Of a DNA stretch of 64,000 nt, positions 38,754 through 63,390 are shown piece by piece (the first letter of the stretch is position 1; every line of letters starts with the position of its first letter). The stretch comes from Desulfovibrio sp. TomC. GTDB taxonomy: Bacteria > Desulfobacterota > Desulfovibrionia > Desulfovibrionales > Desulfovibrionaceae. The notes under the pieces were generated by a model, which saw only the letters and a list, made by a program, of their open reading frames with translations, was not told the DNA's origin and did no database searches. Made by a program: the position numbers and the translations under genes. The stretch is from NCBI RefSeq assembly GCF_000801335.2, contig NZ_JSEH01000009.1:1-64000 (forward strand). The letters run 5' to 3'.

Positions 38754-38764
38754 AATGATGATCC
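38748..38764 (+). other. attL core of the integrated element
   Basis: The 17-bp sequence CCGCCAAATGATGATCC spans the tRNA-Ser 3' end and recurs exactly at 56679-56695. Similarity continues outward on the element side (38770-38837 versus 56701-56767). It marks the left boundary of an element of about 17.9 kb. Confidence 0.85.
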
Positions 38765-38808
38765 AGCCAAGTCCGATACGATCCAAAAAGTAAGTAAATT
38801 CAGCGAGA

Positions 38809-38840: not shown

Positions 38841-38917
38841 AACGTCCATTGACATCCGGGGGCAAGAGGGGGCAGGAATGGGGGCAGCGCCACGGAATGG
38901 CAAAGGAGTTGCCCCCG

Positions 38918-40132
38918 ATGCTCACAGATACCGCAGTACGAAACGCAAAACCGGGAGCCAAAGCCGTCAAGCTGTTTGACGGTGGCGGCCTGTACTTGGA
39001 AGTTGCCCCGTCTGGGGGCAAGTGGTGGCGGCTCAAATATCGCCACGGGGGGAAAGAGAAGCGTATTTCCCTCGGCGTCTACCCTGCTGTGGGATTGAAG
39101 GACGCCCGTACCCGCCGTGACGAAGCGCGTAAACTCATTGCCAATGGCGTGGACCCGAGCAAGGCCCGTCAGGAAGAGAAGGCAGAGGCTGCAGCCGAGG
39201 CCCTGACCTTCGAGCATGTGGCCCGTGAATGGTATGAGCGCTTCAAACCCAAGTGGTCCGCCTCCCACTCCCTGGACGTGATCCAGCGGCTTGAAAAGAA
39301 CGTCTTTGCCTCCCTTGGTCCCAGGCCCATCCGCGACATTACCGCTCCCGAGCTTTTGGCCGCCGTCCGACTTATTGAAGGCCGTGGAGCCGTTGAAAGC
39401 GCCCGCCGCATCCTGCAAATGTGCGGTCAAATTTTTCGCTATGCCATCGCCACGGGACAGGCTGATCGGGACATTGCCGCCGATTTGCGCGGATCGCTGC
39501 CTCCTGCCAGGGAGAAGCACCACGCCAGCCTCACGGACCCCAAGGCCGTGGCACAACTGCTGAGAGCCATAGACGGTTACGAGGGCTCTATGGTGGCTCG
39601 TTGCGCCTTGCGTCTTGCCCCGCTTGTTTTTGTCCGCCCCGGCGAACTGCGCCATGCGGAATGGTCAGAAATCGACTTGGACAAGGCCGAATGGCGCATT
39701 CCCGCTGCCAAGATGAAGATGAAGGAGCAACATATTGTGCCGCTGTCCCGGCAGGCCGTTGCCATCCTGCTGGAACTGCATCCCCTGACCGGGGCGGGCA
39801 AGTACGTGTTCCCGTCCGTGCGGACCTCGGCAAGGCCCATGTCCGAAAACACCGTTTTGGCCGCCCTGCGTCGCATGGGCTACACCAAGGACGAAATGAC
39901 CGGCCACGGCTTTCGCTCCATGGCAAGCACCCTACTCAATGAAATGGGCTGGAACCGGGATGCCATCGAGCGCCAGCTTGCCCATGCCGAGCGCAACGCT
40001 GTCCGGGCGGCCTATAACTTTGCGGAGCATTTGCCCGAGCGCCGCAAGATGATGCAGGCCTGGGCCGACTACTTGGAGAAGCTCAAAGCCGGGGCGAAGG
40101 TGACGCCGCTGCACGCGGCGGCTGGCGAGTAG
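38918..40132 (+). CDS. int: Tyrosine integrase of the tRNA-Ser element
   Basis: 404 aa. N-terminal DUF4102 arm-binding domain (LTDTAVRNAKPGAKAVKLFDGGGLYLEV...RISLGVYPAVGLKDAR), core-binding region, and a catalytic domain with Arg in FVRPGELRHAEW, HGFRSMASTLL (H-x-x-R) and a terminal HAERNAVRAAYNF where the nucleophilic Tyr is expected. This is the P4/CP4-57 integrase type that uses tRNA 3' ends. ATG 38918 has AAGGAG 9 nt upstream; an ATG at 38897 is less likely. A degraded paralogue lies just past the right end of the element (56911-57143). Confidence 0.93.
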   Translation: MLTDTAVRNAKPGAKAVKLFDGGGLYLEVAPSGGKWWRLKYRHGGKEKRISLGVYPAVGLKDARTRRDEARKLIANGVDPSKARQEEKAEAAAEALTFEHVAREWYERFKPKWSASHSLDVIQRLEKNVFASLGPRPIRDITAPELLAAVRLIEGRGAVESARRILQMCGQIFRYAIATGQADRDIAADLRGSLPPAREKHHASLTDPKAVAQLLRAIDGYEGSMVARCALRLAPLVFVRPGELRHAEWSEIDLDKAEWRIPAAKMKMKEQHIVPLSRQAVAILLELHPLTGAGKYVFPSVRTSARPMSENTVLAALRRMGYTKDEMTGHGFRSMASTLLNEMGWNRDAIERQLAHAERNAVRAAYNFAEHLPERRKMMQAWADYLEKLKAGAKVTPLHAAAGE

Positions 40133-41123: not shown

Positions 41124-41247
41124 GTTGCGATGCCTGGGTATTATTTACGACGCGGGGGGTATTTTTCGCTTGAATAGTCCAACAAATATCAGGGCCAAGT
41201 GATCCGGGCCACCTGCATTGGTGGCCATACACAAAGGAGCTTGGCCC

Positions 41248-41469
41248 ATGACTACCCCACAGAACCTTTCCGATTCGGCTTTGTTGCGCCTACCCCAGGT
41301 GGTGGGCGACCAGAAGCGCGGTATTGCCCCCCTTGTCCCTGTCTGCAAAAGCACCTGGTGGCAATGGGTCCGTGAGGGCAAGGCCCCGAAGCCTGTCCGC
41401 ATCGGACCGCGTTGCGTCGCCTGGCGCGCCTCTGAAATTCGGGTCTTTCTTGATGGCCTGAAAGCGTAG
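41248..41469 (+). CDS. AlpA-family DNA-binding regulator
   Basis: 73 aa: SALLRLPQVV, then CKSTWWQWVREGKAPKPVRIGPRCVAWRASEIRVFLDGL, the MerR-like winged helix of AlpA (P4 Vis/CP4-57 AlpA). It typically controls excision or the replication genes of satellites and genomic islands. AAAGGAG 8 nt before ATG 41248 fixes the start. First gene of an operon reading into the zinc protein, DUF3987 and primase genes. Confidence 0.85.
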   Translation: MTTPQNLSDSALLRLPQVVGDQKRGIAPLVPVCKSTWWQWVREGKAPKPVRIGPRCVAWRASEIRVFLDGLKA

Positions 41470-41479
41470 GGGGCGTAGC

Positions 41480-41890
41480 ATGTCGCGCAAGAAAAAGGCC
41501 TCACGCCCTGACCGGGGGCACGAGGCCAAAAAGAAAAGCGGAAACACGTTCCCCGCCCTCATAGCGCTCCCAGGCAAATGGTGCAACGCCTACATGACTG
41601 GTCATGTTCCCCTGGCCGTAAGGGCAGCAGCCCTGGACGTGCTTGGCAAGCCCTGTGTGCTGTGTGGACGCTTATCTCGGTTCGCCGGGGCTATGGAATC
41701 GCCCGTAGTACTTGTGGGGCCGCCTCCCGGACCGGCAACCGTCATAGTCGGCCTATGCAAGGCTTGCGCCCCAAAAGAGTTGAGGGAGGGACGCGTAAAT
41801 GCGTTGCGGGAATCTCCCGAAGCCGTTGAGAAGATCCTTTCCGCTGTCCTCTTCGCGCTGGTCCCGCCGGCATCGGGGGCGGATCAATGA
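41480..41890 (+). CDS. Small zinc-binding-type protein in the replication operon
   Basis: 136 aa with a lysine-rich N-terminus (MSRKKKASRPDRGHEAKKKSG) and one CxxC...CxxC pair (CVLCGRLSRFAG...LCKACAP) compatible with a zinc ribbon. It starts 11 bp after alpA and its stop overlaps the next start (ATGA). Function unknown; nucleic-acid binding is likely from charge and zinc motif. Confidence 0.68.
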   Translation: MSRKKKASRPDRGHEAKKKSGNTFPALIALPGKWCNAYMTGHVPLAVRAAALDVLGKPCVLCGRLSRFAGAMESPVVLVGPPPGPATVIVGLCKACAPKELREGRVNALRESPEAVEKILSAVLFALVPPASGADQ

Positions 41891-43506
41891 TCGACCTCAA
41901 CGCCTATGCGGCCGAACGCTCCGGCCGCCATCCTCCTGAGGGTGGACCCGGACAGGCGTCCAACTTTTGCGACCCTGTCGTCATCGCCGCCGCGCTCCGT
42001 GAAGCGGCGGCTGAGGAAGTCAGGCCGGGGGAGGAACCGGGCCAGGCGGCCGAGGTCGCCAGACTGCCGCCACCTCCTGCCGTGCCGATTCATGTATTTC
42101 CAGCCCCCATTCAGGATTCTCTCACGGCAGCGGCCGAAGCCTTCCGTGTTCCGTTGGAAGTTCCTACCTGCGCCGTCCTGGCCATGGCCGCTGCTTGTAT
42201 CGGCCGGGCTCGAGGCGTCATCATCAAGGCCGGCTGGGTAGAACACGCCAACCTGTACCTTGCTCTGGTAGCAAAAAGCGGGCTGGGCAAGTCGCCATGT
42301 ACCCGGGCTTTCCTTGGGGCCATCTACAGGGCGGAAAAAGGTTGGAACGCGGAATGGAGCGAGAACCAGGACCGTTGGCAAGAAGAAATGGATGCTTGGC
42401 AGGATGCCAAGCGGAAGCACCGTCGCGGAGAAGGAGACGATCCCGGTCCCAAGCCCGATCAGCCTCGGCGGCGGCAACTGGTCCTTGATGACGCCACCAT
42501 AGAATCCATCACCGACGCCCTGACCGAAAATCCCCGCGGGCTGCTCTGGTGCCGGGATGAACTGGCCGGGTTGCTGATGGACATGGACAAGTACGCCGGC
42601 AAAGACGGGGCCACAAAAACCCGCCTCATGAGCGCCTACGACTCCGGGTCCTGGAAAGTGTCGCGCACGAATAAGGCCCGGATCGGGTTCATTGAACACG
42701 CAACCTTGTCTATCTTCGGCACCGTCCAGCCTAAGACTTTGGCCGGGATCTTCTGCGGACACGACGCGGCATCCGGTTTCCTTCCCCGGTTCCTTTTCAT
42801 TCGAGCCGTGCAGGATAAGCCGGCCACGTGGACGGACGCGACATTCGACGGCCGCGACCGGGAACGTATCGACAGCCTTGCCGCGTCCCTCCTTGCCCTG
42901 GACTTCGGAGACGATGGGAAGCCGGTCATTATTGGCGTGGATGGCGCGGCGAAGCGGCTTTATCGGGCATGGCATGACCGTCTTGCCATGGAAGCGTGGA
43001 TGGGCCCCGATGACGATTCCGATTCCCTCCTGTCCAAGCTGCGCGGCCAATGTTTGCGCCTGGCTTTGATCCTCCACGAAATGCACGCGGCAATCCTTGA
43101 GCGCGATGATCGAGCGCCGGTTGAGGAAGAAACCATGGCCGGGGCCATCGCGCTTTCGGATTGGCTGCGGGAGCACCAGGGCCACGCCTGGAAGCTCATT
43201 GGGAGCGCCGGCCAAGTGGTGGAAAGCGCTCCTTTGGATGTCCGGGTAGCGACCGCCATCGTGTCCCTTGAGGGGGAGATACAAGGCGGCCGGCTGCCCA
43301 CGGCCAAGGTGGCCGAGAAAGTCAACGCCGGCCTCGACCCCTCATTGCTGGTCGACGTGCGAGCCGTGGGCAAGGCTTGCTCTCGGCTCGGCCTAACCAT
43401 GGTCAAGACGAACGGTCCTCGGATGATCGAGGTCTTCCCCCATGTGCTCACACGGATGCGCGTTATCGGAAACGCCACAAACGCCACAAACGCCACAAAC
43501 CCATGA
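41887..43506 (+). CDS. DUF3987 P-loop replication protein
   Basis: 539 aa. Walker A in LVAKSGLGKSP (about residues 123-133), a Walker-B-like LLWCRDELAGLLMDMDKY, and the DUF3987 landmark segments GSWKVSRTNKARIGF and LSIFGTVQPKTLAG. DUF3987 (YfjI-type) proteins accompany primases in satellites and integrative elements and are thought to act as helicase or loader. The C-terminus reads NATNATNATNP because the gene runs into 9-bp repeats (43470-43496). Translationally coupled to the preceding gene. Confidence 0.83.
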   Translation: MIDLNAYAAERSGRHPPEGGPGQASNFCDPVVIAAALREAAAEEVRPGEEPGQAAEVARLPPPPAVPIHVFPAPIQDSLTAAAEAFRVPLEVPTCAVLAMAAACIGRARGVIIKAGWVEHANLYLALVAKSGLGKSPCTRAFLGAIYRAEKGWNAEWSENQDRWQEEMDAWQDAKRKHRRGEGDDPGPKPDQPRRRQLVLDDATIESITDALTENPRGLLWCRDELAGLLMDMDKYAGKDGATKTRLMSAYDSGSWKVSRTNKARIGFIEHATLSIFGTVQPKTLAGIFCGHDAASGFLPRFLFIRAVQDKPATWTDATFDGRDRERIDSLAASLLALDFGDDGKPVIIGVDGAAKRLYRAWHDRLAMEAWMGPDDDSDSLLSKLRGQCLRLALILHEMHAAILERDDRAPVEEETMAGAIALSDWLREHQGHAWKLIGSAGQVVESAPLDVRVATAIVSLEGEIQGGRLPTAKVAEKVNAGLDPSLLVDVRAVGKACSRLGLTMVKTNGPRMIEVFPHVLTRMRVIGNATNATNATNP

Positions 43507-43593
43507 ATAGTGCGGTTTCCCGGGCGTGGCGTTTCCAACACAAACGCCACAAACGCCACTCGCCCCGTGGCATTTGTGGCATGAGTGGCGTTC
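43470..43593. repeat. Iteron module A, left copy: candidate replication origin
   Basis: AAACGCCAC occurs at 43470, 43479 and 43488 (exact head-to-tail). A 29-bp spacer follows, then one inverted copy GTGGCGTTT at 43526-43534, 7 bp, and AAACGCCAC at 43542 and 43551. Three inverted variants follow at 43567, 43576 and 43585 (GTGGCATTT, GTGGCATGA, GTGGCGTTC). The stretch 43479-43534 is an exact 56-bp inverted repeat of 54767-54822, 11.2 kb away. It overlaps the end of the DUF3987 gene and stops 18 bp before the primase gene. 9-bp phased repeats beside a primase fit an initiator-binding origin. Confidence 0.8.
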
Positions 43594-43611
43594 CCCTAGA
43601 GGTAAATTAAG

Positions 43612-44697
43612 ATGCCGACAATTTTGGATTTTATGCCTTCTGGAACCTTGAAGCACGTGGCCGGGACCGATGGCGGCGAATGGGCCGGCCCTTGTCCGCA
43701 ATGCGACGGCCGCGACAGGTTTCACGCTTGGCCCAACAAGGGCCAGTCGGGGAAATTTTGGTGCAGGGCCTGCGGTTGGAGCGGCGACGGCATCCAGTTC
43801 CTTCGGGATATGGACGACCTGTCCTACCCGGAGGCCTGCCGGCGCTTCGGCGCGACGCCGCGTCCCGGCCGCCGGGCCATGGCTCCCCAGCAAAAGGCGG
43901 TCTGGACTCCCAAGCCTTCCGTTCTGCCGTGCCCGGCCTGGCTGGCCACGGCTGCCGCGTTCGTGGACTACGCCGCCGGCGTGATGGCCGCGTCTGCCGA
44001 GGGCCAGGCCTACGCCCTGGGGCGCGGGCTGACGCCGGAGACGATCCGAGCGTGCCGCATAGGTTGGAACCCGGCCACGATCTACGATCCCCGCGAATCC
44101 TGGGGGCTGCCGCCCGAGCTCAACCCGGAAACGGGCCTCCCTCGGAAGGTGTGGGTTGCTCGGGGCCTAGTCGTGCCGACCTTTCACGCCGGGCATGTGG
44201 TGGCCCTGAAGGTGCGCCGGCCGGATTGGCGCGAAGGGGACCCTTTGCCAAAGTACGCGGCGGTCAAGAGGAGTTCCCAAGGCCCCATGGCCCTGGCCGT
44301 GGCTCCAGGCCGCCCCGTGGCCATCGTCGAGGGAGAGCTTGACGCGCTTCTCATCCACCAGGCGGCCGGCGACCTGGTTGCGGCCATGGCCATGCGCACG
44401 GCCGAGGGCCGGCCCGATGCCGAGGCCCATGCGCTCCTCAAGGATGCTCCCATGATCCTGTGCGCCTTGGACGCCGACGCCGCCGGCCGCAAGGGCTGGT
44501 TGTGGTGGCGCGCCAATTATCCCCAGGCCAGGCGGTGCCCGCCGATCATGGGCAAGGATCCGGGCGAAGGCATGAAAGCCGGCCTGGACCTGCGAACCTG
44601 GATCATCGTCGGCCTTTCACTGTTCGAGCCGCGGCCCAACCCCGAAACTCTCCACGCACCTGCCCGGCGGGACGAACTCCCGGCCTGGGCTTTGTGA
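43612..44697 (+). CDS. CHC2 zinc-finger/TOPRIM DNA primase of the element
   Basis: 361 aa. Zinc finger GPCPQCDGRDRFHAW...FWCRACGW (about residues 23-53), then a TOPRIM domain with AIVEGELDALL and LCALDADAAGRKGWLWW, and a KVRRPDWREGDPLPKY linker. It resembles the N-terminal primase half of P4 alpha but lacks the helicase half; DUF3987 may supply it. Start follows AGAGGT and module A. Ends in ALPAWAL. Confidence 0.86.
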   Translation: MPTILDFMPSGTLKHVAGTDGGEWAGPCPQCDGRDRFHAWPNKGQSGKFWCRACGWSGDGIQFLRDMDDLSYPEACRRFGATPRPGRRAMAPQQKAVWTPKPSVLPCPAWLATAAAFVDYAAGVMAASAEGQAYALGRGLTPETIRACRIGWNPATIYDPRESWGLPPELNPETGLPRKVWVARGLVVPTFHAGHVVALKVRRPDWREGDPLPKYAAVKRSSQGPMALAVAPGRPVAIVEGELDALLIHQAAGDLVAAMAMRTAEGRPDAEAHALLKDAPMILCALDADAAGRKGWLWWRANYPQARRCPPIMGKDPGEGMKAGLDLRTWIIVGLSLFEPRPNPETLHAPARRDELPAWAL

Positions 44698-44732
44698 ACA
44701 GTTCTAGTGGGATGACCAAAAGGAGGAATAAC

Positions 44733-44939
44733 ATGCTGGACCAAAAGCACATTACCGCTTTGCGGGAGGAAATGGCCGTAAGTCAAGGCTGGGTCAATTT
44801 GGCGAACGCCGCGTCGTTTCTCTGGGACGTCATTATGAGTGACCAGCCCTTGAGCGAAGCCGGCACGGAAGAGTTTTTGCGCTTGGTCCGGGAGAGCATG
44901 GCCGCCGTTCGGACCAACAACACGCGAACGGTCCAGTAA
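44733..44939 (+). CDS. Small hypothetical protein
   Basis: 68 aa, helical (LDQKHITALREEMAVSQGWVNLANAASFLWDVIMSDQP), preceded by an excellent AAAAGGAGG. It lies 36 bp after the primase gene and before the late-type gene pair. No family recognised. The 86 bp after it are AT-rich and could hold the promoter of the next operon (GATAAT at 44975). Confidence 0.65.
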   Translation: MLDQKHITALREEMAVSQGWVNLANAASFLWDVIMSDQPLSEAGTEEFLRLVRESMAAVRTNNTRTVQ

Positions 44940-45025
44940 AGGAAGGATGGCTGCTTTCTCTCTGTAAAAGTAGCGATAATATCAGATACATTTAAATGAA
45001 ACCACGACGAATAGGAGAAGTCACC

Positions 45026-46024
45026 ATGGCCAATTTTCAGACTCCGACGCCTGTGCAGATTACCCCCATCGATTTAGGGGAGATCAAGAAAGAAAATACC
45101 CTGGCCGCCATGTACAATCAGCGGCTTCAGGATGCGCAATACGAGACGGGTTCGAGGAACGCGTTAAACGACGTCCTCAAGGCAGACCCGAATGCCACAG
45201 GTCAAAACGTCCTCAGCCAGATGGCGGCCAGAGGGTTTGGCAAGGAGGGGCAATCTTACTCTTACAATTGGGCGAACCGGCAGCATGCCAACCTGCAATA
45301 CGAAATGGATCTTCGCAAAGAGGTGTCCAATCTGATCGGTTCGGTCACGGACGAGAACAGCAAGAATCAGGCAATCGACTATATCCAGTCGAAGTTCCCG
45401 GACGCCGACTTCAGCCAATTCCGGGCCATGCCCTGGCAAGATGCAGTGAAGCAGGGGAACAACTTCGCCCTTGGTGCTGCCGGTAGGGTTTCCCGAGAGC
45501 GTCAGGACAAGGCCGCCGTCGCCGCTGGTTATCAGCCGGGCATGGACCTCTCTACCCTGCACACGGCCCAGGGGATGGAGAACGCAGCTGCCGCCGAGGG
45601 GCGGGCACAGGCGGTGTTCCCCGGCCAGCAGCAACAGCAGGCCGCGACGCTGGAGCACACGCAGGCCAGCACGGATGCCCTGAAGGATCGTCGCAAGGTC
45701 GTCATGATGCCTGATCCCAGCGATTGGACTGGAAAGAAGAAGATCCCCGGAATCCTTATCCCCGGGCAGAATGGGGAACCCGACACCACCATGCCCTTAA
45801 ACTCTAATGCCGGCGGCCAGGGTTTCGGCGGCAACGCTCCGCAATCTGGAAGCATGACTCCGGGTGCTTCTGCCGGGGCGCAGAATGGAACCGGACAGGT
45901 GTACGTCCAGCGCGGGAACGGTCAAATCCTGACGCCTGATACGGCAGCCAAATACGCCAAGGCGGCCGGGGGTGACCGGGCCAAGGCAGAAGAAATGGCC
46001 CGCGCCGACGGATGGGGCTGGTAG
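45026..46024 (+). CDS. Putative virion-type protein upstream of the giant gene
   Basis: 332 aa. Helical, glutamine- and alanine-rich: SRNALNDVLKADPNATGQNVLSQMAARGF, then QQQQQAATLEHTQASTDALKDRR, then a glycine-rich flexible region, ending GGDRAKAEEMARADGWGW. AGGAGAAG precedes ATG 45026. It overlaps nothing and is 8 bp before the giant polyvalent gene. In podophage-like genomes small helical proteins of this kind precede the internal ejection proteins; that analogy is the only basis for the role. Confidence 0.6.
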   Translation: MANFQTPTPVQITPIDLGEIKKENTLAAMYNQRLQDAQYETGSRNALNDVLKADPNATGQNVLSQMAARGFGKEGQSYSYNWANRQHANLQYEMDLRKEVSNLIGSVTDENSKNQAIDYIQSKFPDADFSQFRAMPWQDAVKQGNNFALGAAGRVSRERQDKAAVAAGYQPGMDLSTLHTAQGMENAAAAEGRAQAVFPGQQQQQAATLEHTQASTDALKDRRKVVMMPDPSDWTGKKKIPGILIPGQNGEPDTTMPLNSNAGGQGFGGNAPQSGSMTPGASAGAQNGTGQVYVQRGNGQILTPDTAAKYAKAAGGDRAKAEEMARADGWGW

Positions 46025-46032
46025 GAAGCACT

Positions 46033-49000
46033 ATGGGAAATCCATTCGACGAAGTGTACGCGGGCCAAAACGCTGGGCCGTCGCCACAGACCAACCCCTT
46101 CGACGCGGTCTTCAGCGGTGGCCAGTCGCAAGGGGGCAATCCGTTCGACCAGGTCTTCGCCTCCGATGGCCAGACGGTCACCGACTACGGCGTCACGCTC
46201 CGCAAGGCCCTGGATCGGACCGGCGCGGCCATGGGCTACGGGATGCAAAAGCTCGGATTCGATGAAACCGGCCAAGCTGTCCGGGACATTTACCACGGGC
46301 GCGAGGCGACCGCGCCGCCGCAGTCCGAGAGCTTTAAGCGTCAGGAGGCCATGCCCTGGACTGAGGCCATCAAGCATCCGGTTACGGCCGCTGGGAAGCT
46401 TGCCGGGGATGCTCTGTCCGCTGCGCCTGACATGGCCCTGGCTACCGGGGCCACCTTGGCAACAGGCGGCCTTGCCCTGCCTGGAGTCGTTGGAACGGTT
46501 GCCGGCGGCGCGGCTGGCGGCGCTGCCTTCGGTCTTTCTGGGGCGGAACGGGCAGCCCATGAAATCGAGACGATGCCTGAAGACCAGCTTCGGGGTACGC
46601 CTGCTTTTCTTGACGCCTATGCCAAAACTGATCCCAACCTTCCCGAGTCCGACCGTCTGGCCCAAGCGCGCAAAGGGGCGGCCGATGCCGTAGCCCGGGC
46701 CACCATGGGCGCGAATGTCGGCGTTGGGGCCGTGGTCGGACCTGCCGGCGGTGTGGCCGGCGGTCTGGCAGAAAAAGCCCTCCCTGGTCTTGCCGGGCGC
46801 GTGGCCTCGGGCGCTGTTGGCGGATCGTCCTTCATGGGCGGCATGAAGGTGGCGGAAAACGCCGTGCACCAAGGCTATATCGATCCAAACACCAGCCTGA
46901 CAGAAGGAGTGCCTGACGCTCTGGTCGGCGGTGGTGTCTTTGGTGGTGCGCATGGTGTGGTCAAGGGCAAGGGAGTAGCGGCCGGCGATCAATCCGCCCG
47001 CATCGACACCCGCGCCACGGCGGATTCGCTTCACGGCGTGGCCGATGCTTACGACGTGGCGAAGCTCAACGCCACGTCGTTTCCTGGATCTACGGATGGC
47101 AATCACCTTTCATCGGATCAGCTTGGCCAGTTCATGGCCGCCACGCCTGCCGGACAGGCCTTGGGCAAAACCATCTCCGACCTGCGTGCCGCCGGCTATG
47201 CCGCCCTGGCCGACAAGCTGCAGATCACCAGCGCCAACGCCGGGGAACATGCACCAAAATCGCTGCATTATCGCGGCGAGGCCGTGGACACCAACGCCCG
47301 GGGATTGACACCTGACGAACAGGCCACAGTGGCGCAGTTCGCCGGGCAAAACGGTCTTATGCGCGACGTTGCCGGCGAACCCTGGCATTACAGCTACCGT
47401 GGACAGGTGCAGCAGTCTGGAACGGCGACTGCTGGCCAGCCCGCGCCTTCCGGACCGGTCGGCCCGGCGCAGAAAGCCGCCGACGCCGTGGGGGCTTCCG
47501 ATATAGGCCCGTTCCTGTCCCGGGTGATCGATGCAGAATCGAGCGGCGACTCCAACGTCAAGGCCGGAACTTCTTCGGCGTTTGGCCTGGGCCAGCTCAC
47601 CCGAGACACCCGGCAAGCTGTCCTGGACAAGTACGGCGTCGATGCGTGGTCGAAAGACCCGGAACAGCAAATGCTGGCCCTGGCCTATCTCGCTCGGGAC
47701 AGCCGCACGGGCTTGGCAAAATCCCTGGGTGTCGAGCCGTCCCAGGTCACGGACGGGCAACTCTACATGACCCATTTACTTGGGGAGGGTGGTGCTCGGC
47801 GTTTCTTCACCGGTATGGCTGCGAACCCGAATGACTTGGCCACCAAATACATTAGCCCGGAGGCAGGGACCGCCAATAAGTCCATCTTCCTCGCCAAGGA
47901 TGGCCGGCCGCGCACGCTCCAGGAGGTCTATGATCTCATGGCGGCCAAGGTCGCGCCGAAGGACGGGGAGACGTCGGCCCGGCCCGAAACATCGGCCCCG
48001 GCCGGCCAGATCGGCCCGGAGGCATCGGCCGCGCCCGAGTCCTGGCCGGTGCGCCCTGAACTGGACGCCTTGCGCCAGGACATGGAGACGCGCGCCCCGG
48101 GCATCGTGGAAGGCCAGGGCAGTCCCTGGGACACCCGTCTGCCGGCTGATCGCATCAATGAAGGCCTGGGCCTGGACACGCCGCTTGGCCGCCGGGCCGA
48201 GCTTGAGTCTCTGCGCCAGGACATCCAGGGCCGGGACGTGGCGGCCAGGGCGGCCGACGAGATGGGCGCACCCGTGCCGGCGACCGAAGCCGCCAGGATC
48301 AATGAGCGGCCGGCACTGCCTGAGGGCCAGGGTTTTGACCTGGTGCCCGACGGCATGCGCCAGGACCGGCTACCGGCGAAGCTCGAAGACGCCCCGACCA
48401 TGCCGGCCCAGGACATTCGCTTCCACCTCAACGACAAGCCGGCCGAAGCCTTCCAAGGCATTCGGCCCGAAGACGTCGCCCACGGCATCAAGGGCTATAC
48501 CGAGGCGGCCCCGGGTGCGGCACCGGTGCGCATCGTGCGGTCCATGGACGAACTGCCGCCGCACATTCTCGATCAGTACCGCCGGTCCGGCGAGACCGGG
48601 GCCATTGAAGGCGTCTACGACCGGGGCAGCCGGGCCGTGTGGCTGGTGGCCGACAACCTGGAGAGCAAGTCCCGGGCCGGGGAAATCTGGCTGCACGAGA
48701 ACGTGGCCCACCACGGGCTCCGGGCTGTCTTCGGATCGGACAAGGCCTTTGACGGGTTCCTCAAACGCAGTGCGCAGTTCTACGGCTACGGCAGCGACCA
48801 TATTGCCATGGAAGAGCACATTGCCCGGCTGGCCGAGAAGATGAATGTGGGTCAGGCGCTGACGCCCAAAGAGCGCAGCCTGTGGGGCAAATTCGTGGAC
48901 TACGTGCGCGGCTGGCTGGTCAAGCACGGCTGGGCCACGCCGAAGGACGCGGACCTGCACAGCCTGCTTCAGGACTCGCTGACCCGCATGGCCAGGGGCG

Positions 49001-52000
49001 GAGAGAGGGGAGCTGGCTCATTGTTCCCGGACCAGAGTGCGGCGTTCAGCGCGAAGGAAGACCCCAGGCAGTACCGTGCATTTCTGGAAGGTGAACCCGT
49101 TGTCCGGTTGCGGGGAGATGAATTTCCACGGTTTCCGAAGCTCGGGCAGTTGGCCCAGGCCGTCGGTGATTGGTGGGCGAAGAAGTACGGGAACAATATC
49201 CAGAATCCCGAGCTAGGGGACATCACCATCGATCAGCGCGGCGCAAAATCTTCCGTCGCTCATGGGATGGGGGCCGAGAAGGGCGCGGCGTTTGCGGCTG
49301 TCCCGGATATCCTCTCGAAAGGGAAGGTGATCGGCCACGAAATAAGAGGAGATGTAGACGGCTATTTCGTGGGCGCTCCCGTCCATATCGCGGGGAAAGA
49401 ATATGTGGGTATGGCCTTGGTCAAGAGGGACGCCAATGGCCAGAGGTTCTATCTGCACGAGGTGGTCTTAAAAGAAAAGCTCCAGCGATCCATCAAAACC
49501 GGGGCCCCCGATTTCTCGGGCGAGCGGACCGGAGGAGTCGCTGGAGCCTTCAGAGAAATATTAAGTCGCATTTTTGCCCCTGGCAAGCCCGGCGACGGCG
49601 AGGGGCGGTTCTCGGCGCGGCCCGAAGACCGACTTGAGGCCGATACCGACGCGGCGGTCAAGTCCATAGCCGAAGGCATGAAAAAGGACATAGGTCCCCT
49701 GGCCCGCTGGCTGGGAACCCCCGACTATACCTTCCAGAAGCACCCGGTGGCCAAGGCGATTTATGACGTCTTCCGCAACCGCGTGAACCGCGCCCACGAA
49801 ATTCTCCATACTGCCCTGGACCTCCCGGACGGCGCCACGGTCATGGACAAGTGGAAATCCCTTTCCGAGAAGTCCAAGGCCATGGTCAATCAGATCATCG
49901 ACGTGGCCGACGTGCGGGAGATTCGCCGCCCGGCCGTCGAACCGTGGATGGCCGAACAGAATATCTCCGAGCCTGTCAGGGAGATGTACCGGATCATGCG
50001 GGACAAATACGACGCCCTGCTTGATGAGCGGCTTCGTCCCTACAAGGAGATGCTGGAAAAAGGCGTCAACCCGGACATCCAATACCGGGACTCTGACGGC
50101 AAGCTGGTAACGATGAGCCTCAAGGAGGCCGTAGGCGAGATGGGGCAAATGCGCGGCTTCTATGCCCCGCGCATCCGTCAGACCGGCGACCTGGCCGTGC
50201 TGGCCCGGCGCAAATTGCCCGGCGGTGACTTCGAATATGCCCGGCACCATGTCGAATGGAAGCGCCAGGCAAAGGGGCTGGAAAAGGAACTCCGCGCCAA
50301 GGGCTGGGAGATCACGGGCATGGAGCCTGTGGCCCGGCTGGGTGAGGGCACACAGCAGGCCATTGCCCGACTTGGAGAGGTGGCCAAGGTCGTGGAGAGC
50401 ACGGCAAAGGGCATGAAGGGCGTTCCCGACGACGCCAAGAAGGCGTTCCTTGAACAGTTGGTGGCCGAAATATCCGACGACATCAAAGCCCGCGGCTTCC
50501 GTTCTTCGGCCATCCGCCGCACCGGCCGGGAAGGTCGCGTGGTCCGGGGCTACATTGAGGACGCCGGGGAACGCTTCGCCCAATACGCCCAGCGGACTTC
50601 CTACGGCATCGCCAAGATGGAAGCGGCTCAAAACGCCGTGCGGTCCATGTTCGCCACCGGTCAGGACGGTAAGTTGCTGCTCGATCCCCGCCGGGAGCCT
50701 CGCACCTTTCAGATGGTGCAGAACTACCTGCAGGACCAGCTTCGGAACTCCGAAAAGGCCGACCGGGTCATATCGCTTGGCAAGTCCATCGCCACGTTCA
50801 AATTCCTGGGCTTCAACGCCAAGAGCGCCTTGCTCAACCTGACCACCCTGGCCACACAGGTTCCACCGGCCATGCGGGTTTATGCCGGGGACAGCAAGGT
50901 TTCCTTGTTGCGTTGCGATGCCGAGCTTGTCCGGTCGCTCCCCGATGCAATAGCCTTCATGCTCGGCAAGAGCAGAAAGAACCTGTCCCCTGACGAGCGG
51001 GCCTTCCTGGGGGAGATTCAGCGCAAAGATCTGGATGACCCGCAGTTCGCCCGGGAGGCCTTCAAGAGTTATCAGGCCACAGCTGGTCGCGTCTGGTCCG
51101 GGGCAATGAACAAATCCATGCTGATGTTCGGGGCCACAGAGCAGTTCAACCGCCTGTCCACCCAGCTTGCCGGGTACCGCGTGGCCCGACTGGCCGGGTT
51201 CGGCCACCAGGAAGCCATGGAGCGGGCCTTGACGGCCTCTGACCGGGCGCACGGCGTCTATGGCCGCGAGGCCATGCCAGAAGCCGCCTGGGGCACCAAT
51301 GGCGGGGCGCGGCTTATGCAGCTTGGGTACGTCTATAAGAAATACGCCCACAACACGCTTCAGCTTTTAGCCGACGTGTGGGGCAAGGGCGATGCCCGAT
51401 CCTTCATGCACTTGCTTGCCGCGCCCTTGGCCCTTGGCGGCGTCTCCACCGGCATGGGGGCGCTCGGCTGGGCAGCGGCCAAAGCCATCTATTCGACCCT
51501 GGGCGATTCCCGCGACCCCAAGGAAGCGTTCTTCTCCTGGGTGCGGAACGTGCTGGGCCAGGACGCTGAGCAGTATGCCCGCTTCGGCGCGTTCGGTGCG
51601 CTCGGCATAGACGTGTCCGGTTCCATGGACACGCAGGTCAGGATGCCCGGAACGCTCAAGGATCTGGCCGGCCCTGTTGGCGGTGTGGCCAATGACCTAT
51701 TTGGAGACCAGGGGGCCGCCCATTACCTCGCCACCGGGCAGCCAGGGAAGGCCCTGGAAAAGACGTTGCCGACAGGCATTGCCAAGCCGCTCCAGGCCAT
51801 GCGCGAGGCGGAAACGGGCGTCACGTCCAGCAAGGGCTATCCGCTGCGTGATGAGCAGGGGAAGAATTACATGCCTACGCCCGAGGAGACGACGGCGAAG
51901 GCCCTGGGTTTTCGACCGGCCAGGGAAGCCCGACTCAAGGACATGGATCAGGCCGCCCGGACAGAGGAGCGCGCCTTCCAGGAACGTCGCCAGGACATCA

Positions 52001-52563
52001 TGGAGGCCTACCGGGCGTTCACAGCGGCCGGCGGCACGGATCGGTCCCGCATGGACGTCATTGTTTCGGACATCGCCAAGTTCAACGCCGACGTTGACCG
52101 TATGGACCGGGCCGATATCCAGCCCATCACCCAGCGTTCCATTGAAAGCTCCCTGGCCAGCTTCAGGAACCCCAGCAAGCAGGAGCTTGGCCGGCGTGGC
52201 ATTGGGGACGCATCGGAGGCTGACCCCATCGGTCCGGAGAACTTCGCCCTGGCTGAACAGATGGTGCGGTTTCGGGAGGTGAAACACCAGATCAGCCAGC
52301 TTTACGCCCAGGCCCAGGAATTGGCCGATGCCGGGCGCGTTGCCGATGCCCGGGAGCTTGCCCAGGGAAACGGTTTGATCCCCAAGCACGACCTGATCGA
52401 ACAGGTGCAGGGCGTTTTCCGGGATGCGGCCGAGCTTCGGGAAGCTGCCGAGAAAAACCCGCGTATCTCCGGGGCGCAGCGCGAGGCGGCGCGACTGCAA
52501 GCGGACCATATGGTGAAGCGGGCGCTTCACGAGTTCGAAACCAGATCGGCCGGCTGGCGGTAG
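46033..52563 (+). CDS. Giant polyvalent (injected) protein with peptidase, transglycosylase and zincin domains
   Basis: 2176 aa. Three N-terminal NPFD-x-VF repeats (residues 3-45) precede a Gly/Ala-rich, possibly membrane-active stretch (about 110-310). An M15-type peptidase follows (SLHYRGEAVD near 409 to WHYSY near 451), then a soluble-lytic-transglycosylase domain (FLSRVIDAESSGDS near 493, FGLGQLT near 516). A zincin-like WLHENVAHHG lies near 886, and a beta-rich segment near 1062-1180 resembles the BECR/LPD3-type of polyvalent proteins. A long helical C-terminus (LPD38-like, about 1190-2176) follows. Such proteins are carried in the particle and injected with DNA. The ATG at 46033 follows TAGGAAG. 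Domain calls beyond SLT and M15 are by eye. Confidence 0.8.
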   Translation: MGNPFDEVYAGQNAGPSPQTNPFDAVFSGGQSQGGNPFDQVFASDGQTVTDYGVTLRKALDRTGAAMGYGMQKLGFDETGQAVRDIYHGREATAPPQSESFKRQEAMPWTEAIKHPVTAAGKLAGDALSAAPDMALATGATLATGGLALPGVVGTVAGGAAGGAAFGLSGAERAAHEIETMPEDQLRGTPAFLDAYAKTDPNLPESDRLAQARKGAADAVARATMGANVGVGAVVGPAGGVAGGLAEKALPGLAGRVASGAVGGSSFMGGMKVAENAVHQGYIDPNTSLTEGVPDALVGGGVFGGAHGVVKGKGVAAGDQSARIDTRATADSLHGVADAYDVAKLNATSFPGSTDGNHLSSDQLGQFMAATPAGQALGKTISDLRAAGYAALADKLQITSANAGEHAPKSLHYRGEAVDTNARGLTPDEQATVAQFAGQNGLMRDVAGEPWHYSYRGQVQQSGTATAGQPAPSGPVGPAQKAADAVGASDIGPFLSRVIDAESSGDSNVKAGTSSAFGLGQLTRDTRQAVLDKYGVDAWSKDPEQQMLALAYLARDSRTGLAKSLGVEPSQVTDGQLYMTHLLGEGGARRFFTGMAANPNDLATKYISPEAGTANKSIFLAKDGRPRTLQEVYDLMAAKVAPKDGETSARPETSAPAGQIGPEASAAPESWPVRPELDALRQDMETRAPGIVEGQGSPWDTRLPADRINEGLGLDTPLGRRAELESLRQDIQGRDVAARAADEMGAPVPATEAARINERPALPEGQGFDLVPDGMRQDRLPAKLEDAPTMPAQDIRFHLNDKPAEAFQGIRPEDVAHGIKGYTEAAPGAAPVRIVRSMDELPPHILDQYRRSGETGAIEGVYDRGSRAVWLVADNLESKSRAGEIWLHENVAHHGLRAVFGSDKAFDGFLKRSAQFYGYGSDHIAMEEHIARLAEKMNVGQALTPKERSLWGKFVDYVRGWLVKHGWATPKDADLHSLLQDSLTRMARGGERGAGSLFPDQSAAFSAKEDPRQYRAFLEGEPVVRLRGDEFPRFPKLGQLAQAVGDWWAKKYGNNIQNPELGDITIDQRGAKSSVAHGMGAEKGAAFAAVPDILSKGKVIGHEIRGDVDGYFVGAPVHIAGKEYVGMALVKRDANGQRFYLHEVVLKEKLQRSIKTGAPDFSGERTGGVAGAFREILSRIFAPGKPGDGEGRFSARPEDRLEADTDAAVKSIAEGMKKDIGPLARWLGTPDYTFQKHPVAKAIYDVFRNRVNRAHEILHTALDLPDGATVMDKWKSLSEKSKAMVNQIIDVADVREIRRPAVEPWMAEQNISEPVREMYRIMRDKYDALLDERLRPYKEMLEKGVNPDIQYRDSDGKLVTMSLKEAVGEMGQMRGFYAPRIRQTGDLAVLARRKLPGGDFEYARHHVEWKRQAKGLEKELRAKGWEITGMEPVARLGEGTQQAIARLGEVAKVVESTAKGMKGVPDDAKKAFLEQLVAEISDDIKARGFRSSAIRRTGREGRVVRGYIEDAGERFAQYAQRTSYGIAKMEAAQNAVRSMFATGQDGKLLLDPRREPRTFQMVQNYLQDQLRNSEKADRVISLGKSIATFKFLGFNAKSALLNLTTLATQVPPAMRVYAGDSKVSLLRCDAELVRSLPDAIAFMLGKSRKNLSPDERAFLGEIQRKDLDDPQFAREAFKSYQATAGRVWSGAMNKSMLMFGATEQFNRLSTQLAGYRVARLAGFGHQEAMERALTASDRAHGVYGREAMPEAAWGTNGGARLMQLGYVYKKYAHNTLQLLADVWGKGDARSFMHLLAAPLALGGVSTGMGALGWAAAKAIYSTLGDSRDPKEAFFSWVRNVLGQDAEQYARFGAFGALGIDVSGSMDTQVRMPGTLKDLAGPVGGVANDLFGDQGAAHYLATGQPGKALEKTLPTGIAKPLQAMREAETGVTSSKGYPLRDEQGKNYMPTPEETTAKALGFRPAREARLKDMDQAARTEERAFQERRQDIMEAYRAFTAAGGTDRSRMDVIVSDIAKFNADVDRMDRADIQPITQRSIESSLASFRNPSKQELGRRGIGDASEADPIGPENFALAEQMVRFREVKHQISQLYAQAQELADAGRVADARELAQGNGLIPKHDLIEQVQGVFRDAAELREAAEKNPRISGAQREAARLQADHMVKRALHEFETRSAGWR

Positions 52564-52579
52564 GCCCGGCAACGCAGAA

Positions 52580-52615
52580 GGCCCCGGCGAGGATAGCGTG
52601 TCGGGGCCGTGTTTT
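52580..52615 (+). terminator. Terminator of the giant gene
   Basis: GGCCCCG/CGGGGCC stem with a 15-nt loop followed by GTGTTTT, 17 bp after the stop. Confidence 0.75.
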
Positions 52616-52652
52616 GCCCAAACGCGCGGCACCTAATAAAAAGGAGGAGGCA

Positions 52653-52868
52653 ATGGCGGAGATTATGATTCGCAGCGCACAGGCCATTGCGAAAGCGATA
52701 GGAGAGCATCGAGGTGCGATCCCCGCGTTGGTCAAATTGGAAGGCCTGCCGGCTTGACAGAAGAACGGGAAAGGCCCCTGGTGAGCTTTGCCCGAGGACC
52801 TGGCCGAATGGTTACGCGGGCAGCGCATGAAACATGCCCCCGCTTCCCGCCAAACGCTCCGCGCTTAA
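52653..52868 (+). pseudogene. HTH-type gene interrupted by two in-frame TGA codons
   Basis: A 71-codon frame with AAGGAGGAGG before the ATG. It reads RSAQAIAKAIGEHRGAIPALVKLEGLPA, then TGA (codon 35, 52755), QKNGKGPW, then TGA (codon 44, 52782), then ALPEDLAEWLRGQRMKHAPASRQTL. Without the stops it is a continuous helix-turn-helix protein of the kind that picks DNA sites in phages (AlpA/small terminase-like). No frameshift is present. Either two point mutations have silenced it, or UGA is read through. The intact neighbour at 53295-53531 has a comparable build. Confidence 0.6.
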
Positions 52869-52889
52869 AAAAAACGGGGAGAAACGGTG

Positions 52890-53063
52890 GTGACCTGCGA
52901 ATTGAAAGTCTGCCCGGCCTGCGGCGGCAAGATCGGCGTCATTGACACCCGGGCGCTCGAAAAGGAGATCGTGCGCATTCGCCTCTGCCGGGGATGCCGC
53001 CGGCGGCTTGAGACGGTGGAGGCGGTGGCGCGAGTGGTTTATGCGGGTGAGGTGCGTTATTGA
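52890..53063 (+). CDS. NrdR-like small zinc ribbon
   Basis: 57 aa from GTG: CELKVCPACGGKIGVIDTR...IRIRLCRGCRRRLETVEAV. The CPxC, VIDTR and CRxCRRRLETVE pattern is that of the NrdR zinc ribbon without its ATP-cone, a form seen in phages and islands as short transcription regulators. GGGGAG precedes the GTG (52887 or 52890). The upstream 34 bp recur at 56487-56520. Confidence 0.65.
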   Translation: MTCELKVCPACGGKIGVIDTRALEKEIVRIRLCRGCRRRLETVEAVARVVYAGEVRY

Positions 53064-53103
53064 TTTTGAAAGCCTATTATCTTGCAATCAGGGGGGCAAG
53101 AAC

Positions 53104-53295
53104 ATGGTCAAAGAGAGGGAAAAGCCAACAGTCGGCGTGTCGGACCGGATTTATTTTGACTTCAAAGGAGGGAAATCCGCGACCTCCAGCGAGGGCGAAG
53201 GCTGGCTTGAAGGATCGTCAGAGCCAGGCCAATACCGCCCGTTGTCTCGATTCAAATGGTTGCGGGTTCTGATTGGCCGGTTCCTCGGGCGTTGA
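53104..53295 (+). CDS. Small hypothetical protein
   Basis: 63 aa with a basic-hydrophobic C-terminus (LSRFKWLRVLIGRFLGR) that could lie on a membrane. A G-rich ribosome site precedes the ATG, and its TGA overlaps the next ATG (TGATG), supporting translation. Unknown function. Confidence 0.5.
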   Translation: MVKEREKPTVGVSDRIYFDFKGGKSATSSEGEGWLEGSSEPGQYRPLSRFKWLRVLIGRFLGR

Positions 53296-53531
53296 TGTCA
53301 GCCTCTATCTATTGCGAACCAATGGTTGGTCGCTACGACCTCCGAGGCCGCAAGGCCATTCTGGCGTTCTGGGGGGTGGCTGCTTGGTCTGCTGTTGAAC
53401 GGAAGCGCAGGGCCGGCGCACCCGTACTGAAAGACTCTCGCGGCGTATGGACGGCCTGCAGCGCCGACCTGGATGCGTGGAGCGCGGGGAAATGGCCGCC
53501 AGGCAGCCCGGCAGGTGAGGGGCAGGGATAG
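53295..53531 (+). CDS. Helix-turn-helix DNA-binding protein
   Basis: 78 aa: GRYDLRGRKAILAFWGVAAWSAVERKRRAGAPVLKDSRGVWTACSADLDAWSAG. The build (HTH, then a wing with K-D-x-x-G-x-W and a helix) is that of phage small-terminase/excisionase-like winged helices. Translationally coupled to the preceding gene. The 210 bp after it (53532-53741) hold no clear gene; a short minus-strand frame ending ALAGWLRARGK (53537-53615) may be a fragment of an old gene. Confidence 0.62.
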   Translation: MSASIYCEPMVGRYDLRGRKAILAFWGVAAWSAVERKRRAGAPVLKDSRGVWTACSADLDAWSAGKWPPGSPAGEGQG

Positions 53532-53741
53532 GCTGGCCCGCGGGCTACTTTCCCCGCGCCCGCAACCACCCAGCCAAGGCATCCCGGCCAAGCATTCCCT
53601 TGCCGAGCAGCTCGAACACCATGACGCGCTCCGATTCGGGGGTCTGGACAGTGTCCGTCGATCCGCTGGAGGCTCAGGGAGGTTGAGACGGTGACGTGAC
53701 TGGCGTATAGCGGGCAATTTTACCTGCCCCAATAGCCAATG

Positions 53742-54485
53742 TTATTTTATCCCTCTATTCCTCCTGTAGCCGAAAAATCCTAAGACTCCGCCAAGTAATG
53801 ACCAAGCTATCGCTTTACCTATGGCTTCGCCCCAGTTTATATCCACAATAAATGCGGGGAGTATGTCGTATATAGTTGTCCTGTAGGCAAACTCTTCGCT
53901 GGGGATTACAGATGATATTATCGACTGAAAAATAGGTTGGTATAATATCGCATGTTCATCAACAGCATAGCAGAATATTTTTATATATCCAGTATTGGTA
54001 GGTATGATTCCTTCTACTATAGAAACAGAACCGACGGCAGGTATGTTTGCCTTTGAAAACACCCATAGAATTTTCTGGTTTTTATCGTAGTATTTCCTTC
54101 CTTCTCTAAAATCAGATACCAAGCCATTCATTTCTTTTTCTTCTTTATCGTAATGATTTTTAAATGATTGTTCTGATATTTTTTGTAATTTTGCCTCTTG
54201 AATCCTCCCTGGGTTGCTTATATTGATCAAAATATATGGATAAGAAAACCATCTATTTGTATCTTTTTGCTGAAATGCATAGTTATTGCGCGGAATAGAT
54301 GGTTTGTTTGTGCGAGCAATAATTTCGTCTTCTGTTGATTTGATTACGTCTGCCGGGACTGATATCCATCCAGGTGGAAGTGTAATGGAGAAGTATTTGT
54401 TTTTGAATGTTTCGCAAGCGCCATTTATTGGGGAAAAACATGAAATTAATATTGCTGCGATGGCCATGAAGCTAGCATACCCCAT
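53742..54485 (-). CDS. AT-rich cargo gene: exported, membrane-anchored protein
   Basis: 247 aa, on the strand opposite to the late and regulatory genes around it, with conspicuously AT-rich codons against GC-rich surroundings. Signal peptide (ASFMAIAAILISCFSPINGAC, possibly a lipoprotein), a periplasmic domain (FSITLPPGWISVPADVIK...SIVEGIIPTNTGYIKIFCYAV) and a C-terminal membrane helix (AIAWSLLGGVLGFFGYRRN). AGGAGGGAT precedes the ATG. This is the profile of a phage 'moron' or satellite cargo gene; a surface role such as superinfection exclusion is an inference. No family recognised. Confidence 0.75.
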   Translation of the reverse strand: MGYASFMAIAAILISCFSPINGACETFKNKYFSITLPPGWISVPADVIKSTEDEIIARTNKPSIPRNNYAFQQKDTNRWFSYPYILINISNPGRIQEAKLQKISEQSFKNHYDKEEKEMNGLVSDFREGRKYYDKNQKILWVFSKANIPAVGSVSIVEGIIPTNTGYIKIFCYAVDEHAILYQPIFQSIISSVIPSEEFAYRTTIYDILPAFIVDINWGEAIGKAIAWSLLGGVLGFFGYRRNRGIK

Positions 54486-54597
54486 GTCTTATCCCTCCTA
54501 AGGCCTGAATGATATCGACTGTGTAAACCAGTCGCCTGATATCTGGCATCTGATCCCGATGTTTGGCAAGAACTCCTCTTCGATATCCGCTCCTTTG

Positions 54598-54687
54598 GTG
54601 ACGGGTATGACGGGCCATTTCAACCCGTCATGCCCGGGAACCCGCGTGGTTCAGCCATTTGTGTCGGGTGTGACGGGTCTGACGGGT
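54598..54687. repeat. Iteron module B: same layout, different repeat sequence
   Basis: GTGACGGGT (54598) and ATGACGGGC (54607), 7 bp, inverted ACCCGTCAT (54623-54631), a 29-bp spacer, then GTGTCGGGT (54661), GTGACGGGT (54670) and CTGACGGGT (54679). Spacings equal those of module A (9-9-7-9-29-9-9). The spacer matches the module A spacer at 19 of 29 positions, with GCCCGGGAA and CCGC shared. All repeats, including the inverted one, carry the same change from GGCGTTT to GACGGGT. Confidence 0.78.
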
Positions 54688-54741
54688 TACAGAATGGAAA
54701 AAGAGAAAGTGCCCGTCGCCCCATCCTGTCCGGCTTGCCCC

Positions 54742-54850
54742 GTGGCGTTAGTGGCATGACGAAACAAAACGCCACGCCCGGGAAACCGCACTATTCATGG
54801 GTTTGTGGCGTTTGTGGCGTTTCCCGGAAGGGAAAAATGGGAAACGCCAC
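54742..54850. repeat. Iteron module A, right copy
   Basis: GTGGCGTTA (54742), GTGGCATGA (54751), 7 bp, inverted AAACGCCAC (54767), 29-bp spacer, GTGGCGTTT (54805), GTGGCGTTT (54814), and a further AAACGCCAC at 54842. 54767-54822 is the exact reverse complement of 43479-43534. It starts 54 bp after module B, giving a paired A+B site near the right end of the element. Confidence 0.8.
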
Positions 54851-56520: not shown

Positions 56521-56678
56521 GCTGTATGTGGTGTTGGCGGTGACCCCTCGGTATTAGGCTCACCCATGTTGTTGAAGAAAACTTTGTTGGGGGCAACTTT
56601 GGGGGCAATAGAGAAAATGTGAACAGTAAAAGTAATTTTATATTAAGTTGATACGATTCAAATATGGAGTCCTCTCCC

Positions 56679-56695
56679 CCGCCAAATGATGATCC
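56679..56695 (+). other. attR core / junction with a second element relic
   Basis: Exact copy of the 17-bp attL core. To the right, 56701-56767 repeats the integrase-proximal left arm of the element (38770-38837) rather than ordinary chromosome. This is therefore a junction between the intact element and the start of a second, related element. Confidence 0.82.
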
Positions 56696-56910
56696 CACCT
56701 AGTCCGATACGATCCAAAAGTAAGTGAATTCAGTAGTAAGTCCCGGGAGTATGGTCCGGGACTGTCTTGTGGCGTCTAGTGACATCCGCCCTTGAACCGG
56801 ACACGATACCGGACAACAATCCGAGCCGCCGGACAACAGCCGGTGCCGCTCCATTGCTGGAACAAGGACGGTTGTCCGGTATGTCCTCGCACGGGCATGT
56901 CCCCGTGCAT

Positions 56911-57143
56911 GGTACGAGCGTTTCAAGACCAAATGGTCCGCCTCCCACTCCCTGGATGTGATCCAGCGGTTTGAAAAGAATGTCTTCTCCTCCCTTGGAC
57001 CCAGGCCCGTCCGCGATATCCCCCCGTGCTTATGGTCGCCGTGCGACTCATTAAGGGACGTGGAGCCGTAGAAAGCGCCCGCCGCATCCTGCAAATGTGC
57101 GGGCAAATCTTTCGCTGCGCCATCGCCCCGGGACAGGCCGACC
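56911..57143 (+). pseudogene. Fragment of a second tyrosine integrase
   Basis: DNA closely similar to int 39233-39475: the stretch coding YERFK-x-KWSASHSLDVIQR, then RGAVESARRILQMCGQIFR and an AIA-x-GQAD remnant. It has a frameshift near 57028 and lacks both the N-terminal arm domain and the whole catalytic half. Between the arm repeat and this fragment (56768-56910) is unrelated DNA with CCGGACAAC repeats (56809, 56829, inverted at 56871). 57144-57310 shows no gene. Confidence 0.88.
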
Positions 57144-61197: not shown

Positions 61198-61222
61198 GCT
61201 GACCCCTGAAGTGAGCATTGTC

Positions 61223-63298: not shown

Positions 63299-63299
63299 A

Positions 63300-63370: not shown

Positions 63371-63390
63371 CGTAAGTGAAGGAGACCGCT

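Follow-up and report, generated by a model that had tools for sequence, protein, structure and literature searches.

The question raised by the window, by which we mean the whole 64,000-nucleotide stretch of Desulfovibrio sp. TomC DNA analysed here (contig NZ_JSEH01000009.1, positions 1 to 64,000), is what role is played by three sets of 9-bp repeats that share one spacing and lie at two places in an integrated mobile element, and which of the element's own proteins might bind them. The reading that we favour, with a probability of roughly 0.7, is that the three sets are iteron-type origin modules bound by the DUF3987 protein of the element, a predicted initiator helicase whose gene ends within one of them.

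Repeat modules A, B and C

Counted on both strands, the 64 kb contain exactly 10 copies of the 9-mer AAACGCCAC, all of them confined to two clusters, the first at 43470, 43479 and 43488 (+), 43526 (-), and 43542 and 43551 (+), and the second at 54767 (+), 54805 and 54814 (-), and 54842 (+). The first cluster belongs to module A (43470-43593, + strand), in which three direct units (D; 43470-43496) are followed by a 29-bp spacer (43497-43525), one inverted unit (I; 43526-43534), 7 bp and two further direct units (43542-43559), an arrangement that we write as DDD-29-I-7-DD; beyond it, after another 7 bp, come three inverted degenerate units at 43567, 43576 and 43585 (43567-43593). The module runs over the last codons of the DUF3987 gene, whose stop lies at 43506. 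Module B (54742-54850, - strand) is a mirror copy of module A at 54742-54822, with an extra inverted unit at 54842-54850 and with its outer two units degenerate (GTGGCGTTA and GTGGCATGA). The inverted recurrence of 43470-43559 at 54742-54822, which had been described in the original prediction from the same DNA, was recovered by a scan in which the spacings were left free, with values of (29,7) for module A and (7,29) for module B, and the exact match also described there was confirmed, 43479-43534 being 100% reverse-complementary to 54767-54822 over 56 bp.

Three copies of the module had been counted in that prediction, and this holds for the geometry, although the outer units of B are degenerate and the third copy is built from another 9-mer. 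Module C (54598-54687, - strand) reads DD-7-I-29-DDD, with the unit ACCCGTCAC on the - strand or, written as GTGACGGGT, at 54598 and 54607 (+), then 7 bp, 54623 (-), 29 bp, and 54661, 54670 and 54679 (+). Its spacings are those of modules A and B but the core of its 9-mer is CGTC rather than CGCC, and the free-spacing scan registered it in a shifted register that includes an extra unit, as (5,40). Between modules A and C the 29-bp spacers are identical at 20 of 29 positions, against a mean of 7.5 after shuffling and with 0 of 20,000 shuffles reaching 20, which suggests that the two modules diverged from one another with the spacer partly retained and the 9-mers changing together.

A likely start codon (an ATG preceded by AGGAG) stands at 54891, with modules B and C upstream of it. 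The two modules are probably intergenic, although open frames run mechanically through both, one of them running on from 54630. Their position before a likely small gene, far from the replication genes, raises the possibility that B and C are control sites, either operators for the gene at about 54891 or copy-number or incompatibility sites that titrate the initiator, with module A as the only origin; iteron plasmids use copy-number and incompatibility sites of such a kind. We regard this as possible but doubtful, because the complete origin-like geometry of B and its identical spacer exceed the needs of a plain operator, and the start of the gene at 54891 is itself not certain, given the frame that passes through it from 54630.

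Recurrence of the layout near DUF3987 genes

Of 288 family genomes, 26 contain DUF3987 relatives, as do 21 of 395 in a phylum sample and 29 of 348 in a class sample, sets that overlap and for which the E-value limits differ; a protein search of genome contigs with a single query gave no relative. The loci were scanned with a template, DD-x-I-y-DD, that presets no 9-mer and takes every spacing up to a total of 75, and total spacings of 36-38, or of 45-47 (as if one extra unit were present), were counted as allowed. After removal of 11 duplicates, 57 of 68 loci were retained; near-kin loci (L035-L038 and L039-L040) are still among them, none with a strict match. Within 3 kb of the DUF3987 stop, 20 of 30 template matches had an allowed total spacing, and these lay in 11 loci, while more than 3 kb from the stop the figure was three of six, namely modules B and C of the window and the second module of locus L048. 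Control sequences gave no such result: 1.42 Mb of first-order Markov sequence contained no template match, and real DNA (385 kb, made up of the window outside the element and of 17 stretches, each of 20 kb, taken from genomes of the set) contained 14, with totals of 48-75 and none with an allowed spacing. Two of the 11 strict loci may be chance matches, L065 (GC-rich, within the gene) and L091 (a trinucleotide-like unit), and without them 18 matches in nine loci are left. The geometry, for which a search in related elements keeping DUF3987 had been proposed at the outset, does recur there, with 9-mers different from those of the window, and module A, like the modules of part of the relatives, stands at or just after the 3′ end of the DUF3987 gene.

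A separate count of dense 9-mer arrays (at least six units including one inverted) found them in 21 of 52 DUF3987 loci, 13 duplicates and three loci with less than 800 bp of usable sequence having been dropped, compared with eight of 170 control windows. Of the DUF3987 arrays, 22 of 35 have the core YGTC, compared with three of 26 control arrays.

Nine loci contain at least two strict modules (the window, L034, L042, L044, L048, L050, L135, L136 and L137), and all nine include a mirror-image pair. Measured from start to start, the members of the pair are 98-113 bp apart in L034, L135, L044 and L042, 189 bp in L050 and 228 bp in L137; the three wider pairs are those of L136 (about 1.5 kb), L048 (4.0 kb) and the window (11.3 kb, the widest found). 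In three loci (L050, L136 and L137) the paired modules have their long sides turned inward; in the other six it is the short sides that face one another. The window is thus an extreme case of a recurrent mirror pair. A true bipartite origin like that of phage P4, which would require A together with B in cis and loop the DNA across about 11 kb, would account for the 56 bp kept identical between the two modules, which imply that B is under constraint or was recently copied, and would agree with the mirror pairs that recur at 1.5 or 4 kb (L136 and L048). However, the pair is adjacent in six of the nine multi-module loci, and module A alone already amounts to a full module with extra inverted units, so that we hold a bipartite origin to be conceivable without inclining towards it. 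The need for two distant sites, which had been carried over from P4, is unsupported as stated, with pairs 98-228 bp apart in six of nine loci, and the relation to P4 that survives is one of kind only.

Departures from the template were recognized by eye in L032, L089, L037, L040 and L045. In L032 and L089 one module lies between the integrase and AlpA genes, and in L037 and L040, from another group, a dyad-like array surrounds the stop codon, with a spacer of close to 40 bp, an increase of roughly one helical turn. The strict template also failed in the closest relatives, G213 and G214 (about 50% identity), in which DDD-29-I-7-D can be seen upstream and D-17-I-29-DDD downstream of the DUF3987 gene, with the unit ACACGTCAT; the 17 bp are made up of a degenerate unit and 8 bp more, and some units are spaced by 8 bp. 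DUF3987 genes of plasmids and viruses (L052, L053, L057, L086 and L087) have 9-mer arrays with other spacings. In the cyanobacterial plasmids L087 (4532-4840) and L086 the arrays are within the 3′ part of the gene.

These distributions bear on which gene the modules belong to. Strict modules accompany a fusion of DUF3987 with Prim-Pol in L034 and L044, a fusion with Toprim in L042, L135 and L137, and a separate primase in the window; since the layout persists across all three, it is not tied to one type of primase, and the predicted binder is DUF3987 rather than the primase. Two genomes of the same genus have no close DUF3987 match. One of them, G270, encodes an integrase 84.5% identical to that of the window, an AlpA homologue (39%) and an 819-amino-acid protein without a Pfam match, probably a replication protein, and the 19.9 kb covered contain no allowed-spacing match and no cluster of the window 9-mer. 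The other, G261, encodes a primase 50% identical and an AAA_25 helicase that is presumably RepA-like; the 19.9 kb covered contain no allowed-spacing match, and a different inverted array, of TGTCTGGG with TGTC, lies at the 3′ end of the helicase gene (L162, 5540-5660). With the layout not found in the stretches covered of relatives by integrase and AlpA (G270) and by primase (G261), the module appears to go with the helicase rather than with the integrase, AlpA or primase. The idea of an element-borne origin bound by its own initiator therefore stands in so far as origin-like modules lie beside DUF3987, but the predicted binder is the helicase and not, as had been supposed, the primase.

The same comparison makes it very improbable that the repeats are integrase arm sites or AlpA operators. 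The element encodes both proteins, but G270, which keeps them, shows neither an allowed-spacing match nor a cluster of this 9-mer in 19.9 kb, and the nearer attachment repeat is 1.8 kb from modules B and C and 4.7 kb from module A. Even less credible is the explanation that the DNA repeat merely encodes the NATNATNAT tail of DUF3987. Module A does cover the last codons of that gene, and coding collagen-like repeats are among the tandem occurrences of these 9-mers on virus contigs; however, modules B and C are outside the gene, the first module of L048 begins at the stop, the module of L032 and L089 stands between integrase and AlpA, relatives read the units in different frames, and inverted units with a fixed spacing are unexplained by a protein repeat. 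The integrase, AlpA and coding-repeat explanations were rejected on this evidence from G270, position and geometry.

A further alternative is that the repeats are primer start sites for the primase. T7-type primases recognize a trinucleotide that the GTC core resembles, the primase of the window has a T7-type zinc ribbon, and the YGTC core, as noted, is carried by 22 of the 35 arrays. The TGTC array of G261, which combines a relative of the window primase with the helicase that we take to be RepA-like, also fits, as does the ability of an SCCmec primase to start within iterons (PMC7581432). Nevertheless, GTC-core arrays are also found alongside Prim-Pol primases (L034 and L041), and modules A and B carry CGCC, which makes a function in priming unlikely.

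Several observations weigh against origin modules bound by DUF3987. In contrast to a classical RepA or TrfA iteron plasmid origin, no DnaA box TTATNCACA, with at most one mismatch, lies within 900 bp of module A or 350 bp of modules B and C; seven one-mismatch matches occur elsewhere in the element. The DNA of the modules is not AT-rich (50-bp GC of 0.48-0.64 round B and C and 0.56-0.72 round A, with an element mean of 0.61), although the 50 bp after A drop to 38% GC (0.46 and 0.38 in 43576-43650). Among loci with tblastn scores of at least 130 bits, a strict module is present in 10 of 29 and the template fails in the other 19. The dense-array count found none at L046, L060 and L049, none at L089, where modules are seen by eye, or at the distant L101, and only a weak array at L063. 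Three other, divergent DUF3987 genes of the same genome (L167, L168 and L169, on contigs C45, C34 and C7) have no period-9 run or template match in 3.6-3.7 kb each. The original prediction had named absence of the repeats from relatives that keep the replication genes as the finding that would count against it, and the outcome is mixed, some DUF3987 relatives being without an array. A looser repeat statistic (at least 7/9 matches) failed to tell DUF3987 loci apart from controls, the value of the window array being reached by 37 of 400 control windows, and the stricter dense-array statistic was adopted because the looser one was swamped by repeats in the control DNA. The unit of modules A and B is without the YGTC core. 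Finally, the layout is not exclusive to DUF3987: the template was matched in two of 30 DUF5906 loci drawn from the family (L216 and the GC-rich L239), and template matches are also present on L175 and L180, two virus contigs that were selected by their 9-mers and carry DUF5906 without DUF3987.

DUF5906 as the general owner of the layout was nevertheless rejected, because just two of the 30 family loci match and a third match, L244, is the contig of L175 and thus preselected. Arrays of the module C unit ACCCGTCAC were found on virus contigs at L180 (12591) and L175 (10957-11210), L180 giving a good (37,9) match with it, and the exact three-unit pattern of module C was found in two of 99 relatives' genomes. 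An owner of module C among the three other DUF3987 genes of the genome was rejected, as there is no array with the C unit there. L167 has a short inverted GTCTAC repeat. Seeding from DNA alone was also abandoned: tandem copies of either 9-mer led to 44 IMG/VR loci, none with a DUF3987-profile match in the stretches covered, and four of six loci inspected (L170, L172, L176 and L205) are coding repeats, so that the 9-mers alone are not diagnostic. A long tandem array of TGACAGGTC/TGACGGGTC 9-mers was seen in L163 (genome G700) at about 1340-1600 on a 7-kb contig.

The predicted initiator and a proposed mechanism

The DUF3987 protein (539 amino acids, 41887-43506, + strand) was modelled with a mean predicted local distance difference test (pLDDT) score of 81.5. 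Its core, residues 72-436, matched MCM chains with a top Z of 16.3 (root-mean-square deviation 3.9, 268 residues aligned), and Foldseek gave E-values of 1.2e-4 to a human replisome chain, which we take to be an MCM subunit, and of 0.023 to SCCmec Cch. The C-terminal domain, modelled alone with a pLDDT of 85.1, gave a best Z of 8.8 (root-mean-square deviation 2.5, 73 aligned) and values of 7-8 with Cdc6/Orc1 chains, all of them only moderate, and Foldseek gave no E-value below 0.001 for it; the chains matched are mostly winged-helix domains. The protein is therefore predicted to consist of an MCM-like AAA+ core (about 71-440) and a C-terminal winged helix (about 449-529). Similarity of the 9-mers was correlated with similarity of the winged helix (r 0.28, p 0.024; partial r 0.32, p 0.011) and not with that of the ATPase (r 0.08, p 0.25). 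This covariation is weak and suggestive only, because it comes from 12 loci with unit registers set by hand.

By analogy with SCCmec Cch2 and SaPI Rep, the binding of the modules, the loading of the helicase and the firing of the origin would proceed as follows. The C-terminal winged helix of DUF3987 would most probably read the 9-mers, and the MCM-like AAA+ ring would assemble on them, its direction presumably set by the asymmetric DDD-29-I-7-DD layout; the ring would then open the DNA and pass it to the neighbouring primase, and a mirror-image pair would receive two oppositely directed rings. To a more speculative picture we attach rather low odds. The mirror modules would be a loading platform for two opposed MCM-like DUF3987 hexamers, a mobile-element counterpart of the paired sites of MCM-double-hexamer origins, and the 9-mer and winged helix would evolve together as lock and key while the geometry stays fixed. 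Module C could then be a second origin in another key, permitting replication by the initiator of another element, or the relic of an earlier key.

If the modules are origins of this type, DUF3987, still named as a domain of unknown function, gains candidate origin DNA. The accompanying rule of fixed spacing, changeable 9-mers and mirror pairs is testable and would allow origins to be found in satellites, prophages and plasmids with DUF3987-type genes, and the direction in which an MCM-like helicase is loaded would become testable on short DNA.

Known systems and the genes of the element

An initiator helicase with iterons beside its gene is of a kind already known. SCCmec Cch belongs to DUF927 and SaPI Rep to another helicase family, whereas the protein described here matches DUF3987. 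Alpha of phage P4 is a Toprim primase fused with a helicase, whereas the DUF3987 protein and the primase (43612-44697) are here encoded by separate genes and not by one alpha-type fusion. With SCCmec Cch and Cch2 our element shares an MCM-like AAA+ helicase on a mobile element, a C-terminal double-stranded-DNA-binding domain (here predicted), iterons by the helicase gene and a co-encoded primase. According to PMC7581432, the C-terminal domain of Cch2 binds iterons and three 5-nt iterons lie beside the helicase gene, in contrast to the 9-mers in DDD-29-I-7-DD, mirror pairs and element-specific units found here. The same paper places SaPI origins just downstream of rep and has the C-terminal domain of Rep recognize the repeats, resembling the present case in the position of the repeats directly downstream of the helicase's own gene and in the predicted reader. 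P4 (compare PMC4234260) is likewise an integrative element with its own helicase and primase and two separated repeat sites, those of our element, A and B/C, being about 11 kb apart. The latter paper describes the pRN1 origin as a 100-nt stem-loop, without iterons, in a system with an AEP primase and an SF3 helicase; like ours it is just downstream of the replication gene, and its initiator has a C-terminal winged helix, as predicted here.

PICMI satellites also have an integrase, AlpA and a DUF3987/DUF5906-type replication gene, but the type element is 6.1 kb long and the PICMI model requires fis (PMC10803314), whereas the element here is about 18 kb and no member of the Fis family was found among the 16 window proteins chosen for scanning. 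The word iteron is absent from the main text of the PICMI paper. One earlier paper (PMC5862659) predicts that DUF3987 acts as a helicase in the replication of mobile elements, and in the open-licence literature covered we found no description of an iteron origin for DUF3987, including the 29/7 geometry, the mirror pairing and the changing 9-mers.

The element is integrated and probably excisable, and extends for about 17.9 kb between a left attachment repeat (38745-38788, + strand), at the 3′ end of a tRNA-Ser gene (38664-38753), and a right attachment repeat (56676-56719, + strand) with 91% identity to the left. It encodes, all on the + strand, a tyrosine integrase (38849-40132), an AlpA-like regulator or excisionase (41218-41469), the DUF3987 protein and the primase, which combines a zinc ribbon (PF08273) with a Toprim_2-like domain below the Pfam cut-off. 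Megablast found nothing that matches the element among phage and plasmid records. A protein of 2183 amino acids (46012-52563) has LPD3 and transglycosylase matches, and in these it resembles polyvalent proteins of phages and mobile elements. Past the right attachment repeat, a fragment of a second integrase gene (56902-57141) is 87-88% identical to 39222-39465 and, because of that position, is probably the remnant of another element in tandem at the tRNA-Ser site. Further to the right, at 59383-63978, are genes that resemble kdpA, kdpB and kdpC, as judged from their translations.

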